Virus record (IMG/VR): IMGVR_UViG_3300010371_000042
Location: 1 to 56,859 of that record
Direction: 5' to 3' (one strand)
Length of the DNA: 56,859 bases
Source of the DNA: a virus
Shown here in pieces: positions 1,321 to 54,424 of the stretch; the first letter of the stretch is position 1; each line of letters opens with the position of its first letter. The notes beneath the pieces were generated by a model. That model worked only from the letters and a program-made list of their open reading frames with translations. It ran no database searches and was not told the DNA's origin. A program made the position numbers and the translations under genes.

Positions 1321-1871
1321 GCGGTCTCCGTCATGAAGTCGTCGTCACCAAACACCTCGTCATCGAACGGGGCACCGGTGGCGTCCTCGGGCGCCGACGC
1401 GGGCGGTGCGCCCGGTCGCGTACCGCTGGCTCCGGGTCGCCGCCCCGTCGGTCGCCCGCCGCCGCCAGGTCGCCCCGGCGCGGGCGCGCGGGCGTCCGAG
1501 CCCGGTCGCGCCCCCGACGCCGCGGGCTCGGGTGGCGTCCACCCCGAGCGCAGGCGCCGGGCCCACGTGCGCGCGCGGCGCGCGTCGATACGCGAATACG
1601 TCGCGTACTTCTCCTTGCCCGGCTTCGGGTTGTCGGCCGACCACGCGAGCGCCTCGGCGAGCACGTCGAGAAAGTCAGGCTCGCAGGCGCTGAAGTGCCG
1701 ACCGACGTGGTTCGCGCCGTGCCACGCCTTCGGCGAGAATCGCACCTCGGGGTCCGCGCGGGGCCCGCGCATCTCCTCGTCGCTCGCGAAGAGGCCCGAG
1801 GCGCGCTCGAGGTACGCAACGCGCGCCTGCAGCGCCGCGAAGGCCTCCCGGAGCTTCTCCTCGTCGATCAC
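1317..1871 (-). CDS. Conserved phage protein of unknown function, recombination-module neighbour
   Basis: 184 residues. The start is taken as GTG at 1871, which overlaps the stop of the nuclease gene as GTGA; a longer in-frame reading upstream would run through the nuclease gene. The N-terminal 115 residues contain WHGANHVGRHFSACEPDFL and a region of DARRARTWARRLRSG type. From memory these resemble a widespread phage protein found beside RecT-like and single-strand-binding genes. The C-terminal 65 residues are Pro/Gly/Ala/Arg-rich and probably disordered, ending in an acidic tip (DDEVFGDDDF). Such a tail is reminiscent of single-strand-binding proteins, but no OB fold is evident. Confidence 0.65.
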   Translation of the reverse strand: MIDEEKLREAFAALQARVAYLERASGLFASDEEMRGPRADPEVRFSPKAWHGANHVGRHFSACEPDFLDVLAEALAWSADNPKPGKEKYATYSRIDARRARTWARRLRSGWTPPEPAASGARPGSDARAPAPGRPGGGGRPTGRRPGASGTRPGAPPASAPEDATGAPFDDEVFGDDDFMTETA

Positions 1872-2998
1872 GCGGCCCGTCCTCGCTGCGGCTTCGGCGC
1901 GTTGACGGTGCGGACCTGCTTGATCTCGACGCTGTTGTAGCAGCCCGCGATCTGCTCCTTCGTCGCGCCGAGCTGCTCGAGGAGCGCGAGCGCCGCCTTC
2001 GCGCTGAACTGCTCCTTCGGATACGCGATGCTCTTCGCGGCGTGCATGCCGTCGGGCAGGAGCACCACGCCCACGCGGTGGATCCGACCCTTGAGCGAGT
2101 CGAGGATCCGCTCGAGCAGCGGCGCCGCTCGGTCGTGCGCCTTCTCCCACGCCGCCCCCACCTCGTGCGGCGTCATCGCCTCCACGCGCGCATCGAGTGC
2201 CGCGAGGTCCGACAGCATGGCGCGCGCGAGCCGCATCTTCGCCGGGCAGTGGTCGGACGCCGGGCAGTGGTCGCACCACGAGCCCTCGGCGACGTCCGGT
2301 GTCCCGCCAGCGAGGTACACGCGCCGCGCATCGTGCCCGCGCTCGAGCGCCGCCTCGTACTCGTCGAGGAAGAGATCCACGTCGAGGCGCGTGAAGACGA
2401 AGCGGTCGCGATCCCACACATCGCCGGAGGCGCGGACCTTGGCGATCCGAAACTCCACCTCGTCGACATCCCACTCCGTGAGCATGATCGCCGCGGCGAA
2501 GAAGAGACCCTGGCCGTTTCGTTCCGCGGGGGTGACGTCGAGGAAGCCCGTCTTCGTATCGAGCACGACGACGCGGCGCGGGATGGTGCGATGCCGCCCC
2601 TTGATGTCCAGGCTCCCGGGCACCTCCGTGTCCGCGAGCGGCGCGCCAGTTCGCGCCGCGGCCTGCTCGTAGCCACGCCCGATGTTGTGGCCGAGCATCC
2701 GCGCCGCGCGGGCGTGCACGTCGATCGCGTACGCGACCTCGCACTCGAGGTCCGCGAGATCCCCGCCGAGCGCCGACCAGTCGATGAGCACGCACGTCGC
2801 GCGGTACGCCGGCTCGACCTGCTCGAGCGCTTCGCGGGGATCGCGCCCGGTCAGGGCGTCACGGATGTAGCCGTGGAGCTGCGTGCCGCGCGCTGCCCAC
2901 GGGCCGGAGCGATCGACACGCGGGAACGCGAGCCACGCCGGGCACGCGAGCGTCCGATCGCTGGCCGACGCGGAGCCGTTCGGGAGGGCGGCGCTCAT
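1868..2998 (-). CDS. PD-(D/E)XK nuclease, Cas4/RecB-like, likely partner of the RecT-like protein
   Basis: 376 residues from ATG at 2998 (ATGA overlap). The RecB-nuclease signature is visible: H42 in GTQLHG, an acidic residue D131 and the D147-x-K149 motif in VVLDTKTGF. Cysteines at residue 19 (LACPAW) and near the C-terminal third (WCDHCPASDHCPAK) match the one-plus-three cysteine pattern that holds an iron-sulphur cluster in Cas4 and AddB-type nucleases. It probably resects DNA ends for the annealing protein encoded directly upstream, forming an exonuclease-annealase pair for phage recombination. Confidence 0.8.
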   Translation of the reverse strand: MSAALPNGSASASDRTLACPAWLAFPRVDRSGPWAARGTQLHGYIRDALTGRDPREALEQVEPAYRATCVLIDWSALGGDLADLECEVAYAIDVHARAARMLGHNIGRGYEQAAARTGAPLADTEVPGSLDIKGRHRTIPRRVVVLDTKTGFLDVTPAERNGQGLFFAAAIMLTEWDVDEVEFRIAKVRASGDVWDRDRFVFTRLDVDLFLDEYEAALERGHDARRVYLAGGTPDVAEGSWCDHCPASDHCPAKMRLARAMLSDLAALDARVEAMTPHEVGAAWEKAHDRAAPLLERILDSLKGRIHRVGVVLLPDGMHAAKSIAYPKEQFSAKAALALLEQLGATKEQIAGCYNSVEIKQVRTVNAPKPQRGRAA

Positions 2999-4056
2999 TG
3001 GGCCTGACCGAAGGGGGGCTCGGGGAAGTCGGGCCCGTCGTAGGCGTCGCCGCGCTTCTCCGGGGGCAGGTACTGGCCGCGCGGCTGCGTGGGCGCGGGC
3101 GTGGGCGTGGGCGCGGGCGCGGGCGCCACCTTTTTCGCCTCGCCGACGGTCATGTTGTAGAAGCGCTGGCACTCGTCCACGAGATCCTTCGGAGCCTCGG
3201 CCGAGAAGCGCTTGAACGTCTCGCGCATCGCCTTGATCCGATCGCGATCACGAGCCCCGACGGCGTCGGAGATCTCCTGCTTGAGCGCCTCGGCTTCCGC
3301 CGCGAAGTCGCGCGCGGGCGTCGCCGCGGCCTGGGGCGGCGCGGGCACGTGCGCGGGGATCTGCCCGCGGGTCGCCGCCTCCGCCGCGGCGCGGAGCTCC
3401 CGCTCGGAGCGCTCCTCGTCCTCGATGTCCTCGCGCGTGGCGAGCGAGTTGAGGACGTCCGCGCCGATGATGTCGCAGAGCCGCCCGCACGCGCGCCACT
3501 GCAGCATGGGCCCCGGGTGCCGGTCGTAGTTGTTGAGCGAGGCCCCGGCGGAGTTGGTGCGCCCGTCGCCACGCCCCACGAGGCCCGCGACGCGCGCGTC
3601 CTCGATGGTGAACCGGTACTCGATCGGCTCCTCGCCGGGGCCGACGCGCTTGGCCACCCAGATCGCCTCGTCGTCGCCGAGCTTCTTCGGGCGGATGTAC
3701 TCGATGACGTCCTTGCGCGACTGCAGGAGCGCGAGCTTCAGCTTCGCGTACATGCACGGCGTCTTGAGACCCGTCTTCTGGTTCTCGACGAGAGCGATCC
3801 CCTGGATCGAAGCCATCGCGGGGATGCCGAGGGGGCGGCCGATCAGGATGCGCGCATACGCCTCGTCGGGGGTCGCGGTCAGCGCCGACGCGGCGGCGGC
3901 CTGCGCGATCTCCCATCCCTCGTCGGGCGTCGTCGGCTCGAGCGCGAGGCGGTAGCGCTCCGTCTGGTCGTTGAACTCGAGGAGCGTCGGGTTGCGGCGC
4001 ACGATGGGCGCGGGCGCGGCGGGGGCGGTTCCGTTCTGCGGGGCGGTGGCAGTCAT
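2995..4056 (-). CDS. recT: RecT-like single-strand DNA annealing protein
   Basis: 353 residues from ATG at 4056, with AAAGGA upstream. The core (about residues 25-215) has the RecT pattern: a G-x-P-x-M-A-x-I-x-G stretch (GRPLGIPAMASIQGIALVE), a segment tied to substrate strands, and a late motif where an Arg-rich helix follows PGPMLQWRACGRLCDIIG. The C-terminal 130 residues are Glu/Ala-rich and end in a long Pro-Ala-Thr linker plus an acidic tip. It probably anneals the single strands made by the downstream nuclease. Assignment rests on motif pattern, so a neighbouring annealase family is possible. Confidence 0.75.
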   Translation of the reverse strand: MTATAPQNGTAPAAPAPIVRRNPTLLEFNDQTERYRLALEPTTPDEGWEIAQAAAASALTATPDEAYARILIGRPLGIPAMASIQGIALVENQKTGLKTPCMYAKLKLALLQSRKDVIEYIRPKKLGDDEAIWVAKRVGPGEEPIEYRFTIEDARVAGLVGRGDGRTNSAGASLNNYDRHPGPMLQWRACGRLCDIIGADVLNSLATREDIEDEERSERELRAAAEAATRGQIPAHVPAPPQAAATPARDFAAEAEALKQEISDAVGARDRDRIKAMRETFKRFSAEAPKDLVDECQRFYNMTVGEAKKVAPAPAPTPTPAPTQPRGQYLPPEKRGDAYDGPDFPEPPFGQAQ

Positions 4057-4093
4057 CGAAGTTGGATCCTTTCGTGGAGTGGCAAGTTGGGAG

Positions 4094-4288
4094 TCACGCC
4101 GCGCGGAGGCCCAGCGCGATCTCGACGTCACGGAGCGTCGTCGCGAGCACCGGGTCGGCGACGCGCGGCAGGCCGTCGTCGTCGATTGCGACCTGGCGGT
4201 TCGCGAGGAAGCGGAGCTTCACGCCCGGGTCGAGCGAGCGCCACACGGCGCGGTGGATGGGTTCGTGGTGGACGAGGCCGAGCTTCAT
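4094..4288 (-). CDS. Hypothetical 64-residue protein
   Basis: ATG at 4288 overlaps the upstream stop by one base (TGATG), which fixes the start. The product (MKLGLVHHEPIHRAVWRSLD...) is a compact mixed protein with no recognised domain. It lies immediately upstream of the RecT-like gene in the same operon. Confidence 0.6.
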   Translation of the reverse strand: MKLGLVHHEPIHRAVWRSLDPGVKLRFLANRQVAIDDDGLPRVADPVLATTLRDVEIALGLRAA

Positions 4289-5561: not shown

Positions 5562-5941
5562 GTCGCCACCTTCGGCGTCAGCGCGACGGAGATATCGCAG
5601 ACGACCATGCAGCCGCTCTCGATCACGAAGCCGCCGTAGAGGCTGCCGTCCTCGCCCACGAAATACCCCGACAGCTTCCCGGTGATCATCGGCGCGATGA
5701 GCGCGAGCGTCTTCTCGCTGACGTGATTGCCGTTGAACCAACACTGGTGCTTCGGGATGTCGACGCGTCCGTCCGGCATCCCGACATCGATGGCGTCATT
5801 CGCCGCGTTCCTCATGGCGTCGAGAAAGCTCGACTCGACGAAGGCGTCGCCCTTCGCAAGGGCTCGACGCGCCCTCCCGACGTCGATCGCCCTCATGTTC
5901 GCGGCGCACTCGATCGTGACCAATTGACCGCGGTAGCTCAC
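5558..5941 (-). CDS. Hypothetical protein
   Basis: 127 residues from GTG at 5941, coupled by GTGA. It has a helical N-terminal half and a C-terminal half predicted as beta strands (GYFVGEDGSLYGGFVIESG, CMVVCDISVAL). No catalytic motif or known family was seen. It is the second gene of the early operon, so it is made early. Confidence 0.6.
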   Translation of the reverse strand: MSYRGQLVTIECAANMRAIDVGRARRALAKGDAFVESSFLDAMRNAANDAIDVGMPDGRVDIPKHQCWFNGNHVSEKTLALIAPMITGKLSGYFVGEDGSLYGGFVIESGCMVVCDISVALTPKVAT

Positions 5942-6279
5942 GACACGGCCTCGAACGCCGGCGGCGGCGCGGGGATGGTGTCATGCGCGCGCGGCACCGG
6001 CTGGATCACGAGGTCGATGCGGGCGACGTCGGACGTGCGCCGGAGCGCGTCGAGCAGCTCCTCCAGGTCCGCGCGGGCGCTCGAGGGCCACGCGATGCAG
6101 CGACGCGGCGGCGAGTACTTGCCCGCGCCGACGAGGGGGAAGTCGTGATCCAAGTCGGCCCCGAACGCGTCGACGAAGTCGCGCAGCGTGTCGGGGTGGC
6201 CGGAGAGAACGACGGCGATTCCGCCGTCGCTCGTGGTCGGGGTCGCGGTGATCGGGTCCGTGGGGTGGCACCGTTCCAT
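5938..6279 (-). CDS. First gene of the left early operon; hypothetical
   Basis: 113 residues. The start is ATG at 6279, one base past the predicted transcription start of the promoter at 6287-6316. No Shine-Dalgarno precedes it, which fits a leaderless message. A TTG at 6288 could extend the frame by three residues but would lie in the -10 box. The N-terminus is Thr/Pro-rich and a central helical segment (DLEELLDALRRTSDVA) is clear. Function is unknown. As first gene in an operon repressed in the lysogen, it could act in the lytic switch. Confidence 0.65.
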   Translation of the reverse strand: MERCHPTDPITATPTTSDGGIAVVLSGHPDTLRDFVDAFGADLDHDFPLVGAGKYSPPRRCIAWPSSARADLEELLDALRRTSDVARIDLVIQPVPRAHDTIPAPPPAFEAVS

Positions 6280-6286
6280 GGGTGCC

Positions 6287-6316
6287 AATGTAACGCTCCA
6301 TACGGAACCGTGTCAA
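6287..6316 (-). promoter_or_regulatory. Left early promoter (PL-like), predicted leaderless, with operator in its spacer
   Basis: Minus strand: -35 TTGACA (6316-6311, consensus), 18-base spacer, -10 TACATT (6292-6287). Transcription would begin about 6280, adjacent to the ATG at 6279. The spacer contains the operator CGCTCC-N4-GGAACC (plus strand 6294-6309). The palindrome GGAACGTTCC (6319-6328) lies two bases upstream of the -35. The rightward promoter at 6776-6804 has the same arrangement. Confidence 0.7.
6294..6309. promoter_or_regulatory. Repressor operator in the left promoter spacer
   Basis: CGCTCC-atac-GGAACC is a near inverted repeat (half-site CGTTCC, 4-base centre). It matches sites at 6754-6769 and 6782-6797. 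Binding here would block polymerase between the -35 and -10. Repressor identity is inferred from the adjacent gene. Confidence 0.6.
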
Positions 6317-6318
6317 GC

Positions 6319-6328
6319 GGAACGTTCC
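6319..6328. promoter_or_regulatory. Second operator of the left promoter
   Basis: Perfect 10-bp palindrome GGAACGTTCC placed just upstream of the -35. The identical sequence sits at 6764-6773 at the same distance from the rightward -35. Confidence 0.6.
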
Positions 6329-6339
6329 ACGAAACCGCC

Positions 6340-6354
6340 AGCCCGTAGCGGGCT
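6340..6354 (-). terminator. Hairpin after the repressor gene
   Basis: AGCCCG-TAG-CGGGCT forms a 6-bp GC stem with a 3-base loop. It lies 17 bases past the repressor stop and before the left early promoter. The U-run after it is weak (TTT), so termination may be partial. Confidence 0.4.
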
Positions 6355-6370
6355 CCGTCTGGGAGACCGT

Positions 6371-6706
6371 CTACCGTCTGGCGATCATCGCGGAGGGCGG
6401 GATGGGCGTCTCGTCACTTTTAGGACGGGCGTCGGAGGGTCGATCCTCCTTCGCCCGAGCGCTCCGTCGTTGCAGCAGCTCCGCGAGCTGCTTTTTGCCG
6501 GCGATGTAATCGTTCAGGTCCGAAACCGAAATCCCGTAGCCACGAGCCACTGCCTCCAGTGACCTGAACTTGGAGAGCCCACGTTTCGCGGTCTCCCATC
6601 GGTTGTACGTCGTCCTGGACACGCCGCATCGCTCTGCGGCGTCGTCCTGCGACCAGCCGAAGGCTGCGCGCAGAGCTGTCAGGGGTCCGCTTCTCTCCGG
6701 CTTCAT
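6371..6706 (-). CDS. CI-like lysogeny repressor, XRE-type helix-turn-helix
   Basis: 111 residues from ATG at 6706; a GTG at 6745 in the same frame would add 13 residues but lies upstream of the likely promoter. Residues 8-62 are an XRE/Cro-CI domain (LRAAFGWSQDDAAERCGVSR, then TTYNRWETAKRG). The remaining 45 residues are basic and disordered-looking, with no LexA-type peptidase domain, so induction would not be by RecA-stimulated self-cleavage. Its position between two early promoters, reading leftward, mirrors lambda cI. It probably binds the CGCTCC-N4-GGAACG sites. Confidence 0.75.
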   Translation of the reverse strand: MKPERSGPLTALRAAFGWSQDDAAERCGVSRTTYNRWETAKRGLSKFRSLEAVARGYGISVSDLNDYIAGKKQLAELLQRRSARAKEDRPSDARPKSDETPIPPSAMIARR

Positions 6707-6725
6707 GTTGTTGCCCACGTTCCGA

Positions 6726-6753
6726 ATGGTACCTTTTTGGGACACCCAGTCAC
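6726..6753 (-). promoter_or_regulatory. Possible repressor-maintenance promoter (PRM-like)
   Basis: Minus strand GTGACT (6753-6748), 16-base spacer, TACCAT (6731-6726), giving a start near 6719, about a dozen bases before the repressor ATG. The -35 abuts the operator at 6754-6773, so bound repressor could contact polymerase. The boxes are weak. Confidence 0.35.
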
Positions 6754-6773
6754 CGCTCCACGCGGAACGTTCC
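6754..6773. promoter_or_regulatory. Repressor operator, composite site upstream of the right promoter
   Basis: CGCTCC-acgc-GGAACG runs directly into TTCC, so the inverted-repeat operator and the palindrome GGAACGTTCC (6764-6773) overlap. It lies between the predicted repressor promoter and the rightward -35. Confidence 0.65.
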
Positions 6774-6775
6774 CC

Positions 6776-6804
6776 TTGACGCGCTCCGAGTGGAACGTTA
6801 TGGT
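6776..6804 (+). promoter_or_regulatory. Right early promoter (PR-like), predicted leaderless
   Basis: -35 TTGACG (6776-6781), exactly 17 bases, -10 TATGGT (6799-6804); transcription is expected at about 6811, which is the ATG of the Cro-like gene. There is no Shine-Dalgarno. The spacer contains the operator CGCTCC-gagt-GGAACG (6782-6797). Confidence 0.7.
6782..6797. promoter_or_regulatory. Repressor operator in the right promoter spacer
   Basis: CGCTCC-N4-GGAACG between the -35 and -10, the counterpart of the site at 6294-6309 in the left promoter. Confidence 0.6.
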
Positions 6805-6810
6805 CCGCTC

Positions 6811-7113
6811 ATGCCTCGGGCTCGCACGTACGGACCGCACCTCACCGCTGCCGCGCTCGACCTGCGCAAGTACATCGACGCGCAGCACATGAGCGTCCCG
6901 ACCTTCTGCGAAGTGCACGGCCTCGACCGCATCCAGGTCCAGCGGATGCTCAACGGTCAACGCGAGCGCGTGTCCACGGCATTCGCGCAGGCCATCCAGA
7001 TCGCGACGAACGGCGCCGTGGTCTGGTCGCGCTGGAACGTGCGCGTCGCGCCGCCGCCGCGGGCCGACGAGAGCGGATCGCACGCGGCCGTGACGGTCGA
7101 GAGGGCGGGCTGA
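6811..7113 (+). CDS. Cro-like small DNA-binding protein, first gene of the right early operon
   Basis: 100 residues. The start is ATG at 6811, at the predicted transcription start, with no ribosome site; an in-frame GTG at 6790 lies inside the promoter and is rejected. A compact helix-turn-helix is visible at residues 15-65 (SVPTFCEVHGLDRIQVQRML). Position just right of the repressor and divergent from it corresponds to lambda cro. It may compete for the same operators; that is inference. Confidence 0.7.
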   Translation: MPRARTYGPHLTAAALDLRKYIDAQHMSVPTFCEVHGLDRIQVQRMLNGQRERVSTAFAQAIQIATNGAVVWSRWNVRVAPPPRADESGSHAAVTVERAG

Positions 7114-7114
7114 C

Positions 7115-7474
7115 ATGGGCGACTCGAAGCCTGCCATGCGGATCGAGGCTGCGCTGTCGTCGCCCGCGACGACTGAGCACCGCGCGAAGCGCATCGGCGG
7201 GGCGCCGTTCGTGTCTCCGTCGTACCGCCGCGCGAAGGCGCTCGTCGCCGACTCGCTGCGCGCGCGGATGCTCGCCGCGGGCGTCTCGCAGCGGGGCATG
7301 GCCTCCGCGGCCGGCGTGAATCTCCGGCTCGTGCAGGCGTGGATCGATCCGGCGGGCCCGAACGGCCTGCGTCTCGACCTCGCGCTGACCGTCGCCCTGG
7401 ACGGCGACGACGACGCGCGCGCTGCGATGGCGGCGGTCCTGCGCGACGTGCTCGCGGCAATCGAACGCGGGTAA
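7115..7474 (+). CDS. Helix-turn-helix protein, second gene of the right early operon
   Basis: 119 residues from ATG at 7115, one base after the preceding stop. The N-terminal 40 residues are Ala/Ser/Arg-rich. Residues 50-90 form a helix-turn-helix (LRARMLAAGVSQRGMASAAG, followed by NLRLVQAWID). A CII-like or other early regulator is plausible by position. No direct evidence ties it to a particular promoter. Confidence 0.65.
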   Translation: MGDSKPAMRIEAALSSPATTEHRAKRIGGAPFVSPSYRRAKALVADSLRARMLAAGVSQRGMASAAGVNLRLVQAWIDPAGPNGLRLDLALTVALDGDDDARAAMAAVLRDVLAAIERG

Positions 7475-7550: not shown

Positions 7551-7733
7551 ATGGGACATCGGCTCATGACCCTGACCGAGCTCTCTGACCTCTTGCTGTC
7601 TGCGTTGGACGACGAATGCGACCTCGCCGAATCCTCGGATACGCCCGCGTCTCCTCCGCCGAGCAGGCCGTCGGAACGTCGCTGTCGGACCAGCAAGCCG
7701 TCATCCGCGCGCACGCGGCGAAAGGTGGCGTAG
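7551..7733 (+). CDS. Leader ORF overlapping the integrase start
   Basis: 60 residues from ATG at 7551 with a good ribosome site (GAGGG, 7 bases upstream), overlapping the first 118 bases of the integrase gene in another frame. The first 23 residues (HRLMTLTELSDLLLSALDDE) look like a real helical peptide; the overlapping part reads as a Ser/Arg/Pro-rich shadow. The integrase ATG at 7616 lacks a ribosome site, so translation of this ORF may control integrase by coupling. It may also be an incidental leader. Confidence 0.4.
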   Translation: MGHRLMTLTELSDLLLSALDDECDLAESSDTPASPPPSRPSERRCRTSKPSSARTRRKVA

Positions 7734-9019
7734 TTGTCCACCGGATGTACGTCGAGGCCGAGTCGGCCGTGCACGAGAAGCTTGAGCGGCGGGAGCAGAT
7801 CCGCGCGCTGCTCGACGACGTGCGCGAGGGCGATCTGGTGCTCGTCGATAAGATCGACCGGTGGAGTCGCGATCCCGAATTCACCTATCGGAGCATTCGA
7901 GAGATCCTTGAGCGCGGCGCGAGCTTCTACGCGGTGGGCGACTCCTGCGATCCCTCGACCCCCGAGGGCGACACGATGCTCAACTTCCGCGTACTCTTCG
8001 CGCGCGAGGAGCACAAGCGAATCAAGACCCGCATGGTGGGAACCCGGAAGCTGCTGCGCGACCGGGGCTACTACGCCGACGGACTGCCCCCGTGGGGCTA
8101 CCGCCGCCAGGACGTGCGCGGTGCCGACCGCAACGTGCTGCTCGTCGATCCTGAGCAGGCGGACCGCGTTCGTGACGTATTCCGCCTGTGCATCGCCGGG
8201 TACTCGCTCGCGAACATCGCTTCTCGCGTGGGCGAGAACCGAGACCGCGTGGCTCACACGCTGCACAACCGCATCTACCTCGGCGAGGTGCGGGACGCGC
8301 GCGGGCAGTGGATCCGCGGACGGCACGAGGCCATCGTCGACGCACACACCTTTGAGGCGGTGCGGGAGTCGATGCGCTCGCGGATGCTGGGCGACCGCAA
8401 GCCGCGCAGCCAATCGCGCACGGCCACATGGTGGCTCCGTGACATCGCGTACTGCATCCACTGCGGCGGCAAGATGTCTGCGGTCTACGGTCGCAGCGGT
8501 ACCGACTGGGCTCGCGACTACTTGCGCTGCTACCATCGGTGCGCGGACGCGAAGCGCATGGTGCGCGTGCGGGAGCTCGAGCAGGAGTGCGACCCGATGA
8601 TCGCCGCGCGGCTCGTGGAGCTCCGCGATCTGCTAGCCGCGCCCCCCGCGGCGCGCCCGCGCGTAGCCGTCAATGTGGCGCCGGCGCTCGAGCGCTTGTC
8701 GCGGAAGCGCGCGCGCCTGCTCGAGACGTACGCGGACGGCGTGTCGACGCGCGAGGAGCTGCACGCGGCGCTCGCGAAGGTCGACGCGGAGCGCGACCGC
8801 CTTGAGGCATTGCGCTGCGGCCCCGCGCCGGTGAAGCCCGAAGAGAGGCGCGCCGCGCTGCGCGCCATCGACGAGGTCCGCCGCGCGTGGGCGAAGATTA
8901 CGGCGATGCAGCGTCGCCCGGCGGTGAACGCGATCGCCCGCCGGGTGCTCATTGGACACGGCGAGACGCCGCGGTTTGAGTGGTTCTCGCCCGACGAGTT
9001 GGCGCGGAGGCTTCCGTGA
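7616..9019 (+). CDS. int: Large serine recombinase (phage integrase)
   Basis: 467 residues. The N-terminal resolvase domain has the catalytic serine at S13 in YARVSS and the conserved DRWSRD region. A 'recombinase' domain follows (about 150-260), then a zinc ribbon with CIHCGG (near residue 280) and LRCYHRC (near 305). A coiled-coil-rich C-terminus (about 330-440) is typical of large serine integrases such as phiC31. It would catalyse attP x attB integration. No attachment site could be identified; in such phages attP is usually next to the gene, making 7475-7615 a candidate stretch. The start is ATG at 7616. Confidence 0.9.
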   Translation: MRPRRILGYARVSSAEQAVGTSLSDQQAVIRAHAAKGGVVVHRMYVEAESAVHEKLERREQIRALLDDVREGDLVLVDKIDRWSRDPEFTYRSIREILERGASFYAVGDSCDPSTPEGDTMLNFRVLFAREEHKRIKTRMVGTRKLLRDRGYYADGLPPWGYRRQDVRGADRNVLLVDPEQADRVRDVFRLCIAGYSLANIASRVGENRDRVAHTLHNRIYLGEVRDARGQWIRGRHEAIVDAHTFEAVRESMRSRMLGDRKPRSQSRTATWWLRDIAYCIHCGGKMSAVYGRSGTDWARDYLRCYHRCADAKRMVRVRELEQECDPMIAARLVELRDLLAAPPAARPRVAVNVAPALERLSRKRARLLETYADGVSTREELHAALAKVDAERDRLEALRCGPAPVKPEERRAALRAIDEVRRAWAKITAMQRRPAVNAIARRVLIGHGETPRFEWFSPDELARRLP

Positions 9020-22737: not shown

Positions 22738-22871
22738 GGGCCGAAAACTGTATCGCATGCGGCCATTTTACGAAGGACGGTGGTCGTCTTTGCCGGCGTT
22801 GCCTCAGGGGCGCATGTCGCGCGCTGCGCGAACCGTGGTGGTTGCGATTGCTTCGCTGGCTCGTGTCCTGA
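22734..22871 (+). CDS. Tiny zinc-ribbon protein
   Basis: 45 residues from ATG at 22734 (ATGA overlap). CIACGHFTKDGGRLCRRC gives a clean C-x2-C, x10, C-x2-C zinc ribbon, followed by a basic, tryptophan-rich tail. It ends 38 bases before the small serine recombinase. Confidence 0.6.
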   Translation: MRAENCIACGHFTKDGGRLCRRCLRGACRALREPWWLRLLRWLVS

Positions 22872-22909
22872 ACGGGAACTCCGACGACCCGGTGTGTGTC
22901 CACCCGGGC

Positions 22910-23593
22910 ATGACCGGAAACGGCAAGACGGCGGTGGCATACGTGAGGGTGTCGACGGAGGACCAGAAGCTCGGTCCGGAGGCGCAGCGGGCGGCGATCG
23001 AAGCGTGGGCGCGGGCCGAGGGCGTGACGGTGGTCGCGTGGCATGTGGACCAGGGGCTCGGCGGGGGCCTGGAACTCGAGGAGCGCGCGGGGCTCATCGC
23101 GGCGCTCGCGGACCTGAAGGCGCACCGCGCCGGGTCGCTCGTCGTCGCGAAGCGCGATCGGCTGGCGCGCGACGTGTACATCGCGGGGGCGATCGAGCGC
23201 GAGGTGGCCAAGACGGGGGCGCGCGTCGTCTCCGCCGACGGGACGGCGAACGGCGACACGCCGGCCGACGCGTTCATGCGGTCGATCCTCGACGCGGTGG
23301 CGCAGTACGAGCGGGCGCTCATCCGGGCGCGGACGAAGGCGGCGCTCGGCGCGAAGGCGGCGCGGGGGGAGCGCGTGGGGGAGATCCCGTACGGCTTCCG
23401 GCTCGCGCCCGACGGCGTGCGCCTCGAGCCCGACGAGGGCGAGCAGCACGTCGTCGCGACCGTGCGCGAGCTTCACGCGTCGGGCCTTTCGCAGCGCGGC
23501 ATTGTGCGCGCCCTGGCCGGCCGCGGCGTGGTGTCGCGGTCGGGCAAGGCGCTCGGCAAGACGCAGGTGGTCCGCATCCTCGAAGCCGCCTGA
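22910..23593 (+). CDS. Small serine recombinase (resolvase/invertase family)
   Basis: 227 residues from ATG at 22910. The catalytic serine is S15 in AYVRVSTEDQ; VVAKRDRLARD carries the conserved arginines, and a C-terminal helix-turn-helix is visible in GLSQRGIVRALAGRGVVSRS. Length and layout fit resolvases and invertases, not integrases. It might resolve multimers, invert a segment or act in transposition. No clear inverted or direct crossover sites were found nearby. Confidence 0.85.
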   Translation: MTGNGKTAVAYVRVSTEDQKLGPEAQRAAIEAWARAEGVTVVAWHVDQGLGGGLELEERAGLIAALADLKAHRAGSLVVAKRDRLARDVYIAGAIEREVAKTGARVVSADGTANGDTPADAFMRSILDAVAQYERALIRARTKAALGAKAARGERVGEIPYGFRLAPDGVRLEPDEGEQHVVATVRELHASGLSQRGIVRALAGRGVVSRSGKALGKTQVVRILEAA

Positions 23594-35380: not shown

Positions 35381-35803
35381 ATGAGCAAGCCCATCGTGCC
35401 CACCATCATCGACGCGCAGGGGAGACCATCGTCCGTCGAGCGTCACGCGCTGCGTCGTCTCCAGCCTCCCGCCCACCTGGACGACGAGACGAAGCGATTT
35501 CTTACGCAACTACAGGACAACATTGACGATGCTACCCGCGCGTCACGCAGCGATCCGACGCTCAACAAGGTCATTCTGCAGGCCCAGAAGGCCACCGGGA
35601 AGGCGGGGTCGCCGGCGACCATGACCATCCGGCATGGGCTCGGGCGACCGTTCACGGGCTACCGGATCACGCGCTCATACGCCGGGAGCGACGTCTTCGC
35701 GGCTGTCGACGCTGCGAGCAACGGAGGCAAGGACCCGACGCAGTACCTCGTCCTCTCGGCGAGTTGCACCGGCACCTACGACGTTGAGATTTTCGCGGGG
35801 TAG
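35381..35803 (+). CDS. Hypothetical virion protein
   Basis: 140 residues from ATG at 35381 with AAGGGTG upstream. The N-terminal 60 residues are helical and polar; the rest reads as strands (TIRHGLGRPFTGYRITRSYA, QYLVLSASCTGTYDVEIF). It probably sits between adaptor and nozzle or forms part of a fibre. Confidence 0.55.
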   Translation: MSKPIVPTIIDAQGRPSSVERHALRRLQPPAHLDDETKRFLTQLQDNIDDATRASRSDPTLNKVILQAQKATGKAGSPATMTIRHGLGRPFTGYRITRSYAGSDVFAAVDAASNGGKDPTQYLVLSASCTGTYDVEIFAG

Positions 35804-48425: not shown

Positions 48426-49127
48426 ATGCTCGGTCGTCGAGGAGGAGCCGACCGTCGGGTCCCGACGTTCGCGGGATTCAAGCCGACGCAGGTCCCCGGC
48501 TGCATGCTCTGGCTGCGCGCCGACATGGGCATCACGCTCGGCACGGGCGTGAGCGCGTGGGCCGACCAGAGCGGGAACGGCAACTCGCCGACCCAGGCCA
48601 CCGGCTCCTCTCAACCGACGCTCGTGCAAAGCGCCATCGGGGGACAGCCAGCGCTCAGCTTCAACGGCACGAGCGAATACATGATCACGCCGTCCGCGTT
48701 GACGGCTGCGCCAATGACCATCTTCGCCGTTGGACAAACGGCGACGCAGAGCGTTGAGCACGCGATGATGGCCGACATCAGTGGAACTTACAATTACATC
48801 TATAGTTTTAATCCCAATTTCATTGTAGCAAATAGCGGCGGATCGCAGTTCAGCAAATCACCGACCGACACCACCATTCCGCACGTCTACGGCGTCACCA
48901 TTAACGGTGCGGCCAGCGGACTCTATGTGGATGGGGTCAAGACGACTGGCACGCTTGGCGCGAGCGCTGCAAGCAGGCAGCTATTTGGGGCCTACCCGGG
49001 ACCAACGGTCTATTGGGACAAGTACATCGCTGAGGTCATCTTCTACACCTCTGTTCTCAGCGCTGCGAACATCTCCCAGGTCGGCAAGTACCTCGCATCG
49101 CGATACGGAATAGCGGGTAGCTGGTGA
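48426..49127 (+). CDS. LamG/ConA-like lectin-domain protein, receptor-binding candidate
   Basis: 233 residues from ATG at 48426. The LamG-type pattern is clear: LWLRADMGITLG, VSAWADQSGNGN, ALSFNGTSEYM, MTIFAVGQ, then GLYVDGVKTTG and a closing VIFYTSVLSAANISQVGKYL. The part encoded by 48780-48850 is strikingly AT-rich compared with the genome, a sign of recent exchange. It likely binds host surface sugars as part of a tail fibre or spike. Confidence 0.7.
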   Translation: MLGRRGGADRRVPTFAGFKPTQVPGCMLWLRADMGITLGTGVSAWADQSGNGNSPTQATGSSQPTLVQSAIGGQPALSFNGTSEYMITPSALTAAPMTIFAVGQTATQSVEHAMMADISGTYNYIYSFNPNFIVANSGGSQFSKSPTDTTIPHVYGVTINGAASGLYVDGVKTTGTLGASAASRQLFGAYPGPTVYWDKYIAEVIFYTSVLSAANISQVGKYLASRYGIAGSW

Positions 49128-50617: not shown

Positions 50618-52246
50618 ATGTCCAACGACACGATACCTGCGCCCCCGGAGTCAGCGAAGAAGCCCCACCTCTTCGTCGCGGTGCTCGCCGGCGGGGGCCG
50701 AGTGGCCTGGACGCACGGCCCCTTCACGCACGAACTGCGCTCAATCTGCGCCATCAACGGCATCGACCTGACGATCCAGTATGACCCGGGAACAGGCGTC
50801 GACCGGGCGCGCAACAAGCTCGCCTCGCGCATCGTCGATGACGAGTCGTTCACGCACATGCTGCAGCTCGACGACGACATCGTGGCCAAACCGCACGACA
50901 TCGTGAAAATGGTCCGCACGGGGCTCGACGTCGTCTCGGGCATCTACCCTCGAAAGACGATCGAGTGGGCGCAGGTCGCCGACGCCGTGAAGCGAGGTGT
51001 CCCGGTCGAGGAGCTCGAGGACTACTCGTGCTCCTTCATCTTCAACCAGATCGTGGACAACGAGGGCCGCGCGAACGCCCGCGACTTCGGCCATCTGGGG
51101 ACCTTCGTCGAGGTCGAGGAGGTCGGCACAGGGTGCCTGATGGTCACGCGTGAGGCGCTCCTCCGGTACATCGAGCACTACCGCGAGCGCATCGAGTACG
51201 TGACCGACTACGCGCCTCGCGACCGAGTGCACCACAACGTCTTCCTCTGCCAGAACGACCCGGGCGCAGAACGGGAGCGGGCGGCGACGGCGCTCCTCGA
51301 AGCAGCAAAGCTGGAGCCCGACGGAAGCGGAGGTGCGTCGCTCGAACTGGGGGCCACGGCGCGCGCGTACCGCGAGGCCGCCGCGAAGCCCGCGTCGATG
51401 GGCCGCCTCCTGACCGAGGACTACAGCTTTTGCCGACGCTGGCGCCTGATGGGGGGCAAGGTCTACGCGGGCATCGACATCGAACTTCAGCACGTCGGCG
51501 GCTACGTCTTCAAGGGCAAGCTCCGGAAGACGCTCGGCCTGAACGTAGTCGATCCCGAGAAGACGCCGACGCTGAAGGTCTGTCCCCCGGAGCACGCGGG
51601 CGTGATGAGCGTTCTCGCGGGCTCCTACGATGTGCCGGAGTTGGACGCCCTTGAGAAGCCCTGCGTGCTCGACATCGGCGCGAACATCGGCGCCTTCAGC
51701 GCGTGGATCGCGAAGCGACGCCCGGGCTGCACCATCGCCGCGTTTGAGCCCCACCCCGACCACGTCGCACTGCTTCGCCAGAACGTGGAGGGGACCGATT
51801 GCGACGTGATGCCGTTCGCTGTGGACGCTCGGCGTGAGCGGGGTCGGTCGATGCTCTTCGACGGGATGCACAACCCGGGGGAGCGTTCGCTGAAGCAGAT
51901 GGGCGAGCAGCTCTCCACGGGCGTCGTCGTCGACACGTTCCCCGCCGCGAACCTGCCGACGTGCGACGTGATGAAGCTCGACACCGAGGGGTGCGAGGTC
52001 GACATCCTGCGCGCGTATCCGCATCTCGCAAAGGTCCGGGTGCTGATGCTCGAGTGGCACTCGAAGGAGGACTACGCGCTCCTGACGGCGTGGCTCCCGG
52101 CGATGGGTCTTCGGCTTGTGCGAGACGACACGAAGGGCGTCTGGGCGAGGGACCGCAATCTCGTGTTCGTGCACGACAACTCGACCCAGACGAGGGCGAC
52201 GAACGTCGTGGAGACCTCGTACGGGCCAGGAGACGATCGCGCGTAG
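50618..52246 (+). CDS. Glycosyltransferase-FkbM methyltransferase fusion
   Basis: 542 residues from ATG at 50618. The N-terminal half is a GT-A-like glycosyltransferase with D-D-D at 85-87 (MLQLDDDIVAKPHDIV) and a C-terminal W/H region. The second half (about 340-530) is a FkbM-family methyltransferase: VLDIGANIGAFSAW (SAM site, near 349), IAAFEPHPDHVALLRQNV and MKLDTEGCEVDIL (near 451). It probably builds and methylates a sugar on a phage tail, on phage DNA, or on host surface glycan. The donor and acceptor cannot be read from sequence. Confidence 0.75.
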   Translation: MSNDTIPAPPESAKKPHLFVAVLAGGGRVAWTHGPFTHELRSICAINGIDLTIQYDPGTGVDRARNKLASRIVDDESFTHMLQLDDDIVAKPHDIVKMVRTGLDVVSGIYPRKTIEWAQVADAVKRGVPVEELEDYSCSFIFNQIVDNEGRANARDFGHLGTFVEVEEVGTGCLMVTREALLRYIEHYRERIEYVTDYAPRDRVHHNVFLCQNDPGAERERAATALLEAAKLEPDGSGGASLELGATARAYREAAAKPASMGRLLTEDYSFCRRWRLMGGKVYAGIDIELQHVGGYVFKGKLRKTLGLNVVDPEKTPTLKVCPPEHAGVMSVLAGSYDVPELDALEKPCVLDIGANIGAFSAWIAKRRPGCTIAAFEPHPDHVALLRQNVEGTDCDVMPFAVDARRERGRSMLFDGMHNPGERSLKQMGEQLSTGVVVDTFPAANLPTCDVMKLDTEGCEVDILRAYPHLAKVRVLMLEWHSKEDYALLTAWLPAMGLRLVRDDTKGVWARDRNLVFVHDNSTQTRATNVVETSYGPGDDRA

Positions 52247-52291: not shown

Positions 52292-52858
52292 ATGAACCCG
52301 ACGCCCACGCCCCCGCTCACGTATGTCAAGCTGGCCATCGTCGCCCTCGCGCTCGTCGGAGGCTTCGTCCTCTGCGCCCTCGGCAAGATCGACGCGTCGT
52401 CGATGTTCGACAAGACGAGCACGATGATCGGCGCCCTCGTGGTCGCCCTGGGGATCTCGGGCGCCGGGGCGGCGATCGCCGGCAAGCTCGCGTCGACTTC
52501 GCCCTCCTCTCCGGTCGACTCGAAGTCCTCGCAGCGGGGCTTCAGCGCGTACGGCGTTCTCGTGGGGGTCTCCTTCGGCGCCCTCGGAGCCGCGGTGTTG
52601 GCCGCCTGCCTCTCCGCGTGCACCCCGCAGCAGGCTGTGAACGTGGAGAACGCTGTCTTCACATCGGCCGACGTCGCGTGCATCGCGGCGAACTCCGGGC
52701 TGCTCGGAAACTCGACGGCCGTGCAGGACATCATGAACGCCTGCCAGATCGCGCCGGCGCTACAGGGGCCGGTCACACAGCTCGTGAACGACTTCGTGAC
52801 GGCGAAAGCTGCGCAGCTTCACGCCCCCTCGACGGTGGACGGCGGGGGCTCGCGGTGA
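52292..52858 (+). CDS. Three-segment membrane protein, holin candidate
   Basis: 188 residues from ATG at 52292. Three hydrophobic helices at about 11-31, 44-64 and 86-108 are followed by a polar C-terminus (about 110-188). A LAACLSAC stretch near the third segment resembles a lipobox but is probably in the helix. It opens the lysis cassette, with three membrane segments typical of class I holins, although it is longer than most. Confidence 0.55.
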   Translation: MNPTPTPPLTYVKLAIVALALVGGFVLCALGKIDASSMFDKTSTMIGALVVALGISGAGAAIAGKLASTSPSSPVDSKSSQRGFSAYGVLVGVSFGALGAAVLAACLSACTPQQAVNVENAVFTSADVACIAANSGLLGNSTAVQDIMNACQIAPALQGPVTQLVNDFVTAKAAQLHAPSTVDGGGSR

Positions 52859-53601: not shown

Positions 53602-53915
53602 AGCTCCACGTCCTCGCGTTCCTGCCGCTCCTGCTGATGCCCTGGGTGGCGCTCGGCATCCTCGGGGCGGCGGGTCTCATCGCGGGCGGCTGCGCGTCGT
53701 CGCCCGATCTGCCGCCGCCTGCGCCGGCGCCGGTGCTCGTGCAGGACGATCCGCACTGGCGCGAGCACCCGGACTGCCTGTGGTGTCGGGAGCAGTGCTG
53801 GCTGGACATCGAGTATCGGTGCGTGGGCTACGCCCAGACCGCCGACGATATCACCCGATGCCAGGCTTGGGACGGCAGCGCACCGGCGCCGGTCGATGCG
53901 GGGTGTGCGTGGTGA
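53598..53915 (+). CDS. Cysteine-rich lipoprotein, spanin-like candidate
   Basis: 105 residues from GTG at 53598 (GTGA overlap). A hydrophobic signal (VLAFLPLLLMPWVALGIL, then GAAGLIAGGC) precedes a Pro-rich segment and a cysteine-rich domain (CLWCREQC). The AGGC cleavage site is a loose lipobox. An outer-membrane spanin role is possible by position but not proven. Confidence 0.55.
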   Translation: MKLHVLAFLPLLLMPWVALGILGAAGLIAGGCASSPDLPPPAPAPVLVQDDPHWREHPDCLWCREQCWLDIEYRCVGYAQTADDITRCQAWDGSAPAPVDAGCAW

Positions 53916-54424
53916 CCCGCGGTCTCGTGGCCATCATCGCAGTGGCATGGACGCTCGCCGGCTGCGCGACCACGACGACCACGCACGGCGTCCCGAACCT
54001 GCACCAGGTCGAGGGGACCGTGTGGCGCTCCGGTCAGCCATCGACGCCGGAGGCGTGGCGCTACCTGCGCTCCCTCGGCATCACCACGGTCGTGAAGCTC
54101 AATCGCGAGTCGGAGGGCAGCGACGCTGGCGCCGTCGCCGCGGGGATGACTGTCATCGCGATCCCCATGCCGCCGTCGGACATCTGGGAGACGCTCACGC
54201 AGCCTGCGCAATCGGACATCCGGCGCGCCGTCGCCGCGATGCGCGAGGGCCATGCGCTCGTGCATTGCACCCACGGCGAAGACCGCACGGGGCTCGCCGT
54301 CGGCGCGTATCGCGTGTGGGTCGACGGGTGGCCAAAGCGCGCCGCGCGCCGCGAGATGGACGCCGACGGGTTCCACCAGGAGCTCGTGGGGCTCGACGAG
54401 GCGTGGGAGGCGCTGGCGCCGTGA
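53912..54424 (+). CDS. Lipoprotein dual-specificity/tyrosine phosphatase
   Basis: 170 residues from GTG at 53912 (GTGA overlap). A signal peptide with lipobox TLAGC (Cys18) is followed by the phosphatase motif HCTHGEDRTG, i.e. H-C-x5-R with C119 and R125, and a substrate-recognition region YLRSLGITTVVKLN. Secreted and membrane-anchored phosphatases are unusual in phages. It may act on a periplasmic or surface phosphate, or on extracellular polysaccharide intermediates. Confidence 0.75.
   Translation: MTRGLVAIIAVAWTLAGCATTTTTHGVPNLHQVEGTVWRSGQPSTPEAWRYLRSLGITTVVKLNRESEGSDAGAVAAGMTVIAIPMPPSDIWETLTQPAQSDIRRAVAAMREGHALVHCTHGEDRTGLAVGAYRVWVDGWPKRAARREMDADGFHQELVGLDEAWEALAP

Follow-up and report, generated by a model that had tools for sequence, protein, structure and literature searches.

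In phage lambda, the repressor gene of the immunity region is situated between outward promoters sharing operators; operators lie within the promoter spacers and recombination genes follow PL. One lambda operator abuts the -35 region of the weak promoter PRM and another lies over PRM.

The lambda cI and PaaR2 mRNAs are leaderless (PMC8630535). In the immB region of the telomere phage PY54, the divergent cI and cro mRNAs were both found to be leaderless by RACE (PMC4488713). The divergent SigA-like promoters PL1 and PR2 of Corndog (cluster O mycobacteriophages) are both predicted to give leaderless messages (PMC4351075). The mycobacteriophage BPs (Prep/PR, gp33) carries an operator between the -35 and -10 regions of PR and a second one at the start of the repressor promoter (PMC4557955).

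We analyzed an IMG/VR virus record of 56,859 bp with 70% GC, the whole of which is called the window. As recognized in an earlier sequence-only reading, it contains a lambda-like immunity region. A short XRE repressor gene lies between outward promoters sharing an operator family; RecT and exonuclease genes are found to the left, and to the right an HTH gene in the Cro position precedes a serine integrase gene. Lambda and the window have in common the outward promoters flanking the repressor gene, operators in spacers, the OR2/PRM layout, a leaderless repressor mRNA (predicted here) and recombination genes beyond PL. Unlike in lambda, the PL and PR messages of the window are also predicted to be leaderless, the repressor is short and without a cleavable domain, the left side has two good operators instead of three, operator sequence and spacing differ, and a serine integrase is encoded in the right arm. 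The leaderless pair of PY54 comprises the cI and cro promoters, whereas the window adds PL (predicted); host, repressor and operators differ as well. For PL1/PR2 of Corndog, the description of the two promoters mentions no shared operators or repressor (PMC4351075), whereas the window has a repressor gene between the promoters and recognizable putative operators. BPs resembles the window by its short repressor, the operator in the PR spacer and the operator at the repressor promoter start, but its immunity is integration-dependent, its repressor is a tetramer and its operator combines a 12-bp palindrome with a variable half site (PMC4557955). The view that a pair of leaderless lytic messages is unusual is weakened by the PY54 and Corndog precedents, and an operator in the PR spacer is known from BPs. 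Each part of the locus has precedents in known phages, and the combination sits in an undescribed lineage.

Early promoters and genes of the two arms

The following early promoters were identified:

6287-6316, minus strand: promoter PL (TTGACA 6316-6311, 18-bp spacer, TACATT 6292-6287), 7 nt to ATG 6279, message predicted leaderless
6776-6804, plus strand: promoter PR (TTGACG 6776-6781, 17-bp spacer, TATGGT 6799-6804), 6 nt to ATG 6811, message predicted leaderless

They were the only sigma70-like sites in a scan of the whole window and lie exactly where two promoters pointing outward from the CI-like gene had been placed before. Since approximately 1.6 sites were expected (obtained by shuffling the thirds of the window separately and summing), the count itself is unremarkable, and the position of PL and PR tells more than their number. 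The 571-bp immunity region harbors two promoters, whereas its shuffles average 0.06 (P(≥2) = 0.002). Local alignment of PL with PR scored 25.5, and the best of 3,000 shuffles reached 16. No further promoter was detected near PL or PR by the sigma70-type scan. The arms contain the following genes:

1868-3172, minus strand: exonuclease, PL operon (phrog_69, E = 6.5e-17)
2995-4131, minus strand: RecT-like annealing protein, PL operon (phrog_4171, E = 1.9e-12)
5938-6279, minus strand: first gene of the PL operon, 113 aa, ATG 6279, coding GC3 profile
6811-7113, plus strand: 100-aa HTH protein in the Cro position (weak PHROG match to phrog_925 HTH, E = 1.1e-5; no Pfam match)
7115-7474, plus strand: second gene of the right arm, 119 aa, without a family match
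7616-9019, plus strand: large serine integrase, right arm (phrog_95, E = 2.6e-71)

The product of 5938-6279 matched no Pfam or PHROG family. PL would drive the leftward operon with the exonuclease and RecT genes, and PR the rightward operon with the Cro-position HTH gene at its head; the gene content of both arms fits early-left and early-right operons. Elsewhere in the window, 22757-23593 encodes another serine recombinase (phrog_95, E = 2.8e-41), which with 278 aa is shorter than the integrase and possibly represents a fragment or a second recombinase. In the late region, 50618-52246 encodes an FkbM-type methyltransferase domain after a domain of unknown function (phrog_1574).

Predicted leaderless messages in the window and its relatives

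Leaderless genes are marked by a TANNNT -10 region whose first T lies approximately 12 bp before the start codon (PMC3160421). Both early promoters of the window have a -10 region of this form, with distances from its first T to the start codon of 13 (PL) and 12 (PR). The -10 regions end 7 and 6 nt ahead of the ATGs, and no Shine-Dalgarno sequence precedes the 6279 gene, the 6811 gene or the repressor gene; the geometry thus agrees with the earlier statement that the predicted starts fall within a base or two of ATGs lacking a Shine-Dalgarno sequence. Many structural genes do carry one (e.g., AAGGAGG, GGAGGTG). At least five Shine-Dalgarno-matching bases were found for 26% of 47 genes versus 7% of random positions, several gene starts in this count being uncertain.

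A third leaderless promoter, claimed to drive a lipoprotein moron, could not be recovered, as several searches of the window yielded no lipobox ORF with such a promoter. The nearest candidate start, ATG 48778 (minus strand), opens a 55-aa frame lying antisense within the plus strand gene 48426-49127. The only convincing lipobox frames detected in the window are at 52562, 53598 and 53912-54424, none of them with a leaderless promoter. The last one (plus strand) overlaps the end of the preceding gene, and its lipobox protein includes a phosphatase-like stretch, HCTHGEDRTG.

Single-sequence IMG/VR scans with the repressor, Cro-position protein, terminase and integrase disclosed no close relatives, nor did a single-sequence scan of genome contigs with the integrase, and the window showed no DNA similarity to phages. 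Alignment of the terminase against genome contigs revealed no prophage, and therefore no host was assigned. A collection scan for GGAACGTTCCNNTTGAC gave 17 loci, none of which exhibited the promoter/operator anatomy on inspection. By terminase alignment, distant IMG/VR relatives with up to 41% identity were found.

One of these relatives, G004, contains two TTGACA promoters in back-to-back arrangement, with an ATG at 6-7 nt from each and a YdaS-like Cro gene after one of them; the Cro homologue of G002/G003 matches the G004 Cro at 64%. G002/G003 harbor four TTGTC-N5-GACAA dyads, located at cro/CI and, beyond CI, at a leaderless-type promoter, and nowhere else in the record; one of these dyads fills a promoter spacer. 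All three records share with the window the leaderless start geometry and Cro/CI-type genes, and G002/G003 also the dyads in a promoter spacer and a CI gene flanked by two operator clusters. They differ from the window by unrelated operator sequences and the YdaS-like Cro, and G004 also by its back-to-back promoters with no CI between them. As G004 and G002/G003 share the layout while the dyads are unrelated, topology and geometry recur and operator sequences do not. G006, G007 and G008 revealed no repeated dyad set of comparable strength, and the design is therefore not shared by all terminase relatives; G008 has one leaderless-type promoter.

At the strong promoters of the window and its relatives, the ATG follows the -10 region after 6 nt in seven cases and after 7 nt in two, while other offsets occur about 0.5 times each. 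Since G002 and G003 are near duplicates, about eight of these nine cases are independent. Because 6-7 nt is the prevailing distance between -10 region and ATG across the lineage, leaderlessness looks like a habit of the lineage, and to judge from this spacing, leaderless translation of first genes appears to be usual for these phages. There is a somewhat better than even chance that leaderlessness, though real, has no regulatory meaning and is a common host or lineage mode for operon-first genes, as in Actinobacteria, where leaderless genes average 19% (PMC3160421). Two promoters of G004 outside the immunity region are leaderless-type too, and there are more in G002/G003 and G008, whereas in the window a good -35 region combined with a predicted leaderless start is confined to the immunity region. 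This explanation is compatible with a lysogeny switch built from leaderless early messages and merely denies that leaderlessness has a special significance.

Some further features of the relatives were noticed. In G004 (L056), near-identical leaderless-type promoters at 35743 and 36496 (minus strand; TTGACT, a 17-bp spacer containing CCGGATTGAATCCG or CCGGAATCAATCCG, AATACT, and 6 nt to the ATG) each drive a small gene, the two genes being unrelated, and their spacers possibly represent a second shared operator in G004. A small cysteine-rich TGG-repeat lipoprotein-like gene lies close to the immunity region in L045 (2906-3271, plus strand) and L047 (959-1531, minus strand); as an impression only, its style suggests a myxobacterial host. 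By eye, the single protein of L045 5017-6453 (G002), downstream of the leaderless-type PL, looks like a fusion of a 5'-3' exonuclease with a RecT-like part, which would parallel the exonuclease and RecT genes of the window.

Putative operators

The palindrome GGAACGTTCC, reported to precede each -35 region, was indeed found at 6319-6328 and 6764-6773, two bases ahead of the -35 regions of PL and PR. With at most one mismatch, two sites occurred versus 2.0 expected; it is thus not enriched by number, and placement is what counts. The second proposed element was a spacer operator CGCTCC-N4-GGAAC. Sites resembling CGCTCC-N4-GGAACG with three mismatches occurred at chance level in the window, and for this reason a stricter dyad count was adopted. 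In a blind dyad scan covering every 6-mer half-site of the region with spacers of 0-8, CGTTCC-N4-GGAACG ranked first, with five sites in the region and three elsewhere in the window (10003, 45004 and 50494). When the whole dyad search was repeated, an equal score was reached by 1 of 200 shuffled regions and by none of 59 other phage stretches. Strong as it is, the dyad signal is not unique, and in three of the five dyads just 10 of 12 positions match. Spacings other than 4 yielded zero or one site in the region at 10/12 matches. The sequence GGAACGTT exists in five copies in the window, all of them in the immunity region, a number reached in 0 of 100 shuffles. On the basis of the blind scan, the shuffles and the spacing test, the operator is better read as the 16-bp dyad CGTTCC-N4-GGAACG. 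Dyads of this form fill both spacers, and the proposed operator unit had to be redefined to one present in five copies. The dyads and the candidate PRM promoter are:

6294-6309, plus strand: putative operator OL1, CGCTCCATACGGAACC, 10/12, within the PL spacer
6309-6324, plus strand: putative operator OL2, CGTGTCAAGCGGAACG, 10/12, over the PL -35 region, including part of GGAACGTTCC 6319-6328
6718-6733, plus strand: putative OR3-like dyad, CGTTCCGAATGGTACC, 10/12, over the -10 region and start of PRM
6726-6753, minus strand: candidate weak PRM (GTGACT 6753-6748, 16-bp spacer, TACCAT 6731-6726), 7 nt to GTG 6718, message predicted leaderless
6754-6769, plus strand: putative OR2-like dyad, CGCTCCACGCGGAACG, 11/12, abutting the PRM -35 region, centre at about -43.5 from GTG 6718
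6768-6783, plus strand: weak dyad, CGTTCCCCTTGACGCG, 9/12, over the PR -35 region, equivalent to OL2 in register
6782-6797, plus strand: putative OR1-like dyad, CGCTCCGAGTGGAACG, 11/12, filling the PR spacer

All five dyads overlap or abut promoter elements. One dyad family thus occurs at PL (two sites) and at PR and the repressor promoter (three sites), and the right-hand dyads have the order OR1-OR2-OR3 of lambda. Their centres are 28 bp (OR1-OR2) and 36 bp (OR2-OR3) apart, compared to approximately 23-24 bp in lambda, where OR2 is centred about 42 bp upstream of the PRM start.

At both locations GGAACGTTCC fits half-sites of the 16-bp dyads, and it is better read as mostly the junction where half-sites of neighboring putative dyads meet. 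It is rather unlikely that it serves instead as an operator of its own, bound by another factor, or reflects a second binding mode: its position is equal in both promoters and no complete dyad adjoins the left copy on the outer side, but no further copies exist in the window.

The repressor candidate and proposed regulation of the switch

The repressor gene between the two promoters is:

6371-6706, minus strand: CI-like repressor of 111 aa with one XRE/HTH_3 domain at residues 11-64; GTG 6718 is a possible in-frame start further upstream

The HTH is the only domain recognized among the 111 residues; an S24/LexA-type C-terminal domain for cleavage or dimerization is absent. As nothing recognizable follows the XRE domain, we do not expect cleavage of the RecA type known from lambda. 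The AlphaFold model was of low confidence (pLDDT 65), too weak for use, and gave no PDB fold match at E ≤ 0.001; the sequence had no match among PDB sequences and could not be aligned with the G002 repressor. The elements of PRM match at only 8 of 12 positions. GTG 6718 is in frame with the repressor, and the repressor's own promoter is a third candidate for a leaderless start.

We consider it likely that a temperate phage has its lysogeny switch (immunity region) here, in the layout of lambda imm, that the repressor binds the five dyads and that the early messages are leaderless. The product of 6371-6706 is the most probable ligand of the 16-bp dyads. Bound to OL1 and OR1 in the PL and PR spacers, it would exclude RNA polymerase and silence both arms. 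As OR2 abuts the -35 region of PRM and OR3 covers its -10 region and start, both positive and negative control are plausible: occupancy of OR2 could activate the weak PRM, and occupancy of OR3 could limit it. We think it rather improbable that the Cro-position protein 6811-7113 is the main ligand of the dyads or that both regulators share them, in which case lytic autorepression would run the switch. An HTH gene does follow PR directly, and in lambdoid phages Cro and CI share operators; however, the 6811 product is only a weak HTH match (E = 1.1e-5), and it is a lysogenic repressor that would be expected to have sites at all three of PL, PR and PRM.

At all three promoters of the proposed switch, the predicted start coincides with a start codon or is about one base away from it, and the first genes are therefore predicted to be translated from leaderless mRNAs. 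Promoters called from sequence alone in GC-rich DNA are unreliable, yet it is unlikely that the true starts lie upstream at another promoter, or the true start codons downstream, with the -10/ATG spacing a coincidence, as neither ATG is preceded by a Shine-Dalgarno sequence, the first 25 downstream codons of the 6279 and 6811 genes contain no in-frame ATG, GTG or TTG, no alternative promoter lies close by in the sigma70-type scan, and the same spacing occurs in relatives whose operators are unrelated.

Implications

It is a long shot, but the standard early-control unit of the lineage may be a fused cassette of approximately 45 bp, comprising operator, promoter and start codon, in which operators would turn over freely while the promoter-to-ATG geometry stays fixed, leaderless entry freeing the first genes of the lytic and lysogenic programs from Shine-Dalgarno competition. 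The locus provides an uncultivated phage group, which lacks close relatives in the public phage collection, with a readable lysogeny switch, consisting of a five-site putative operator set and three predicted leaderless messages, and in such phages the operator set can be called from the sequence. Relatives with other operators but equal promoter-to-ATG spacing make selection for leaderless early messages directly testable.
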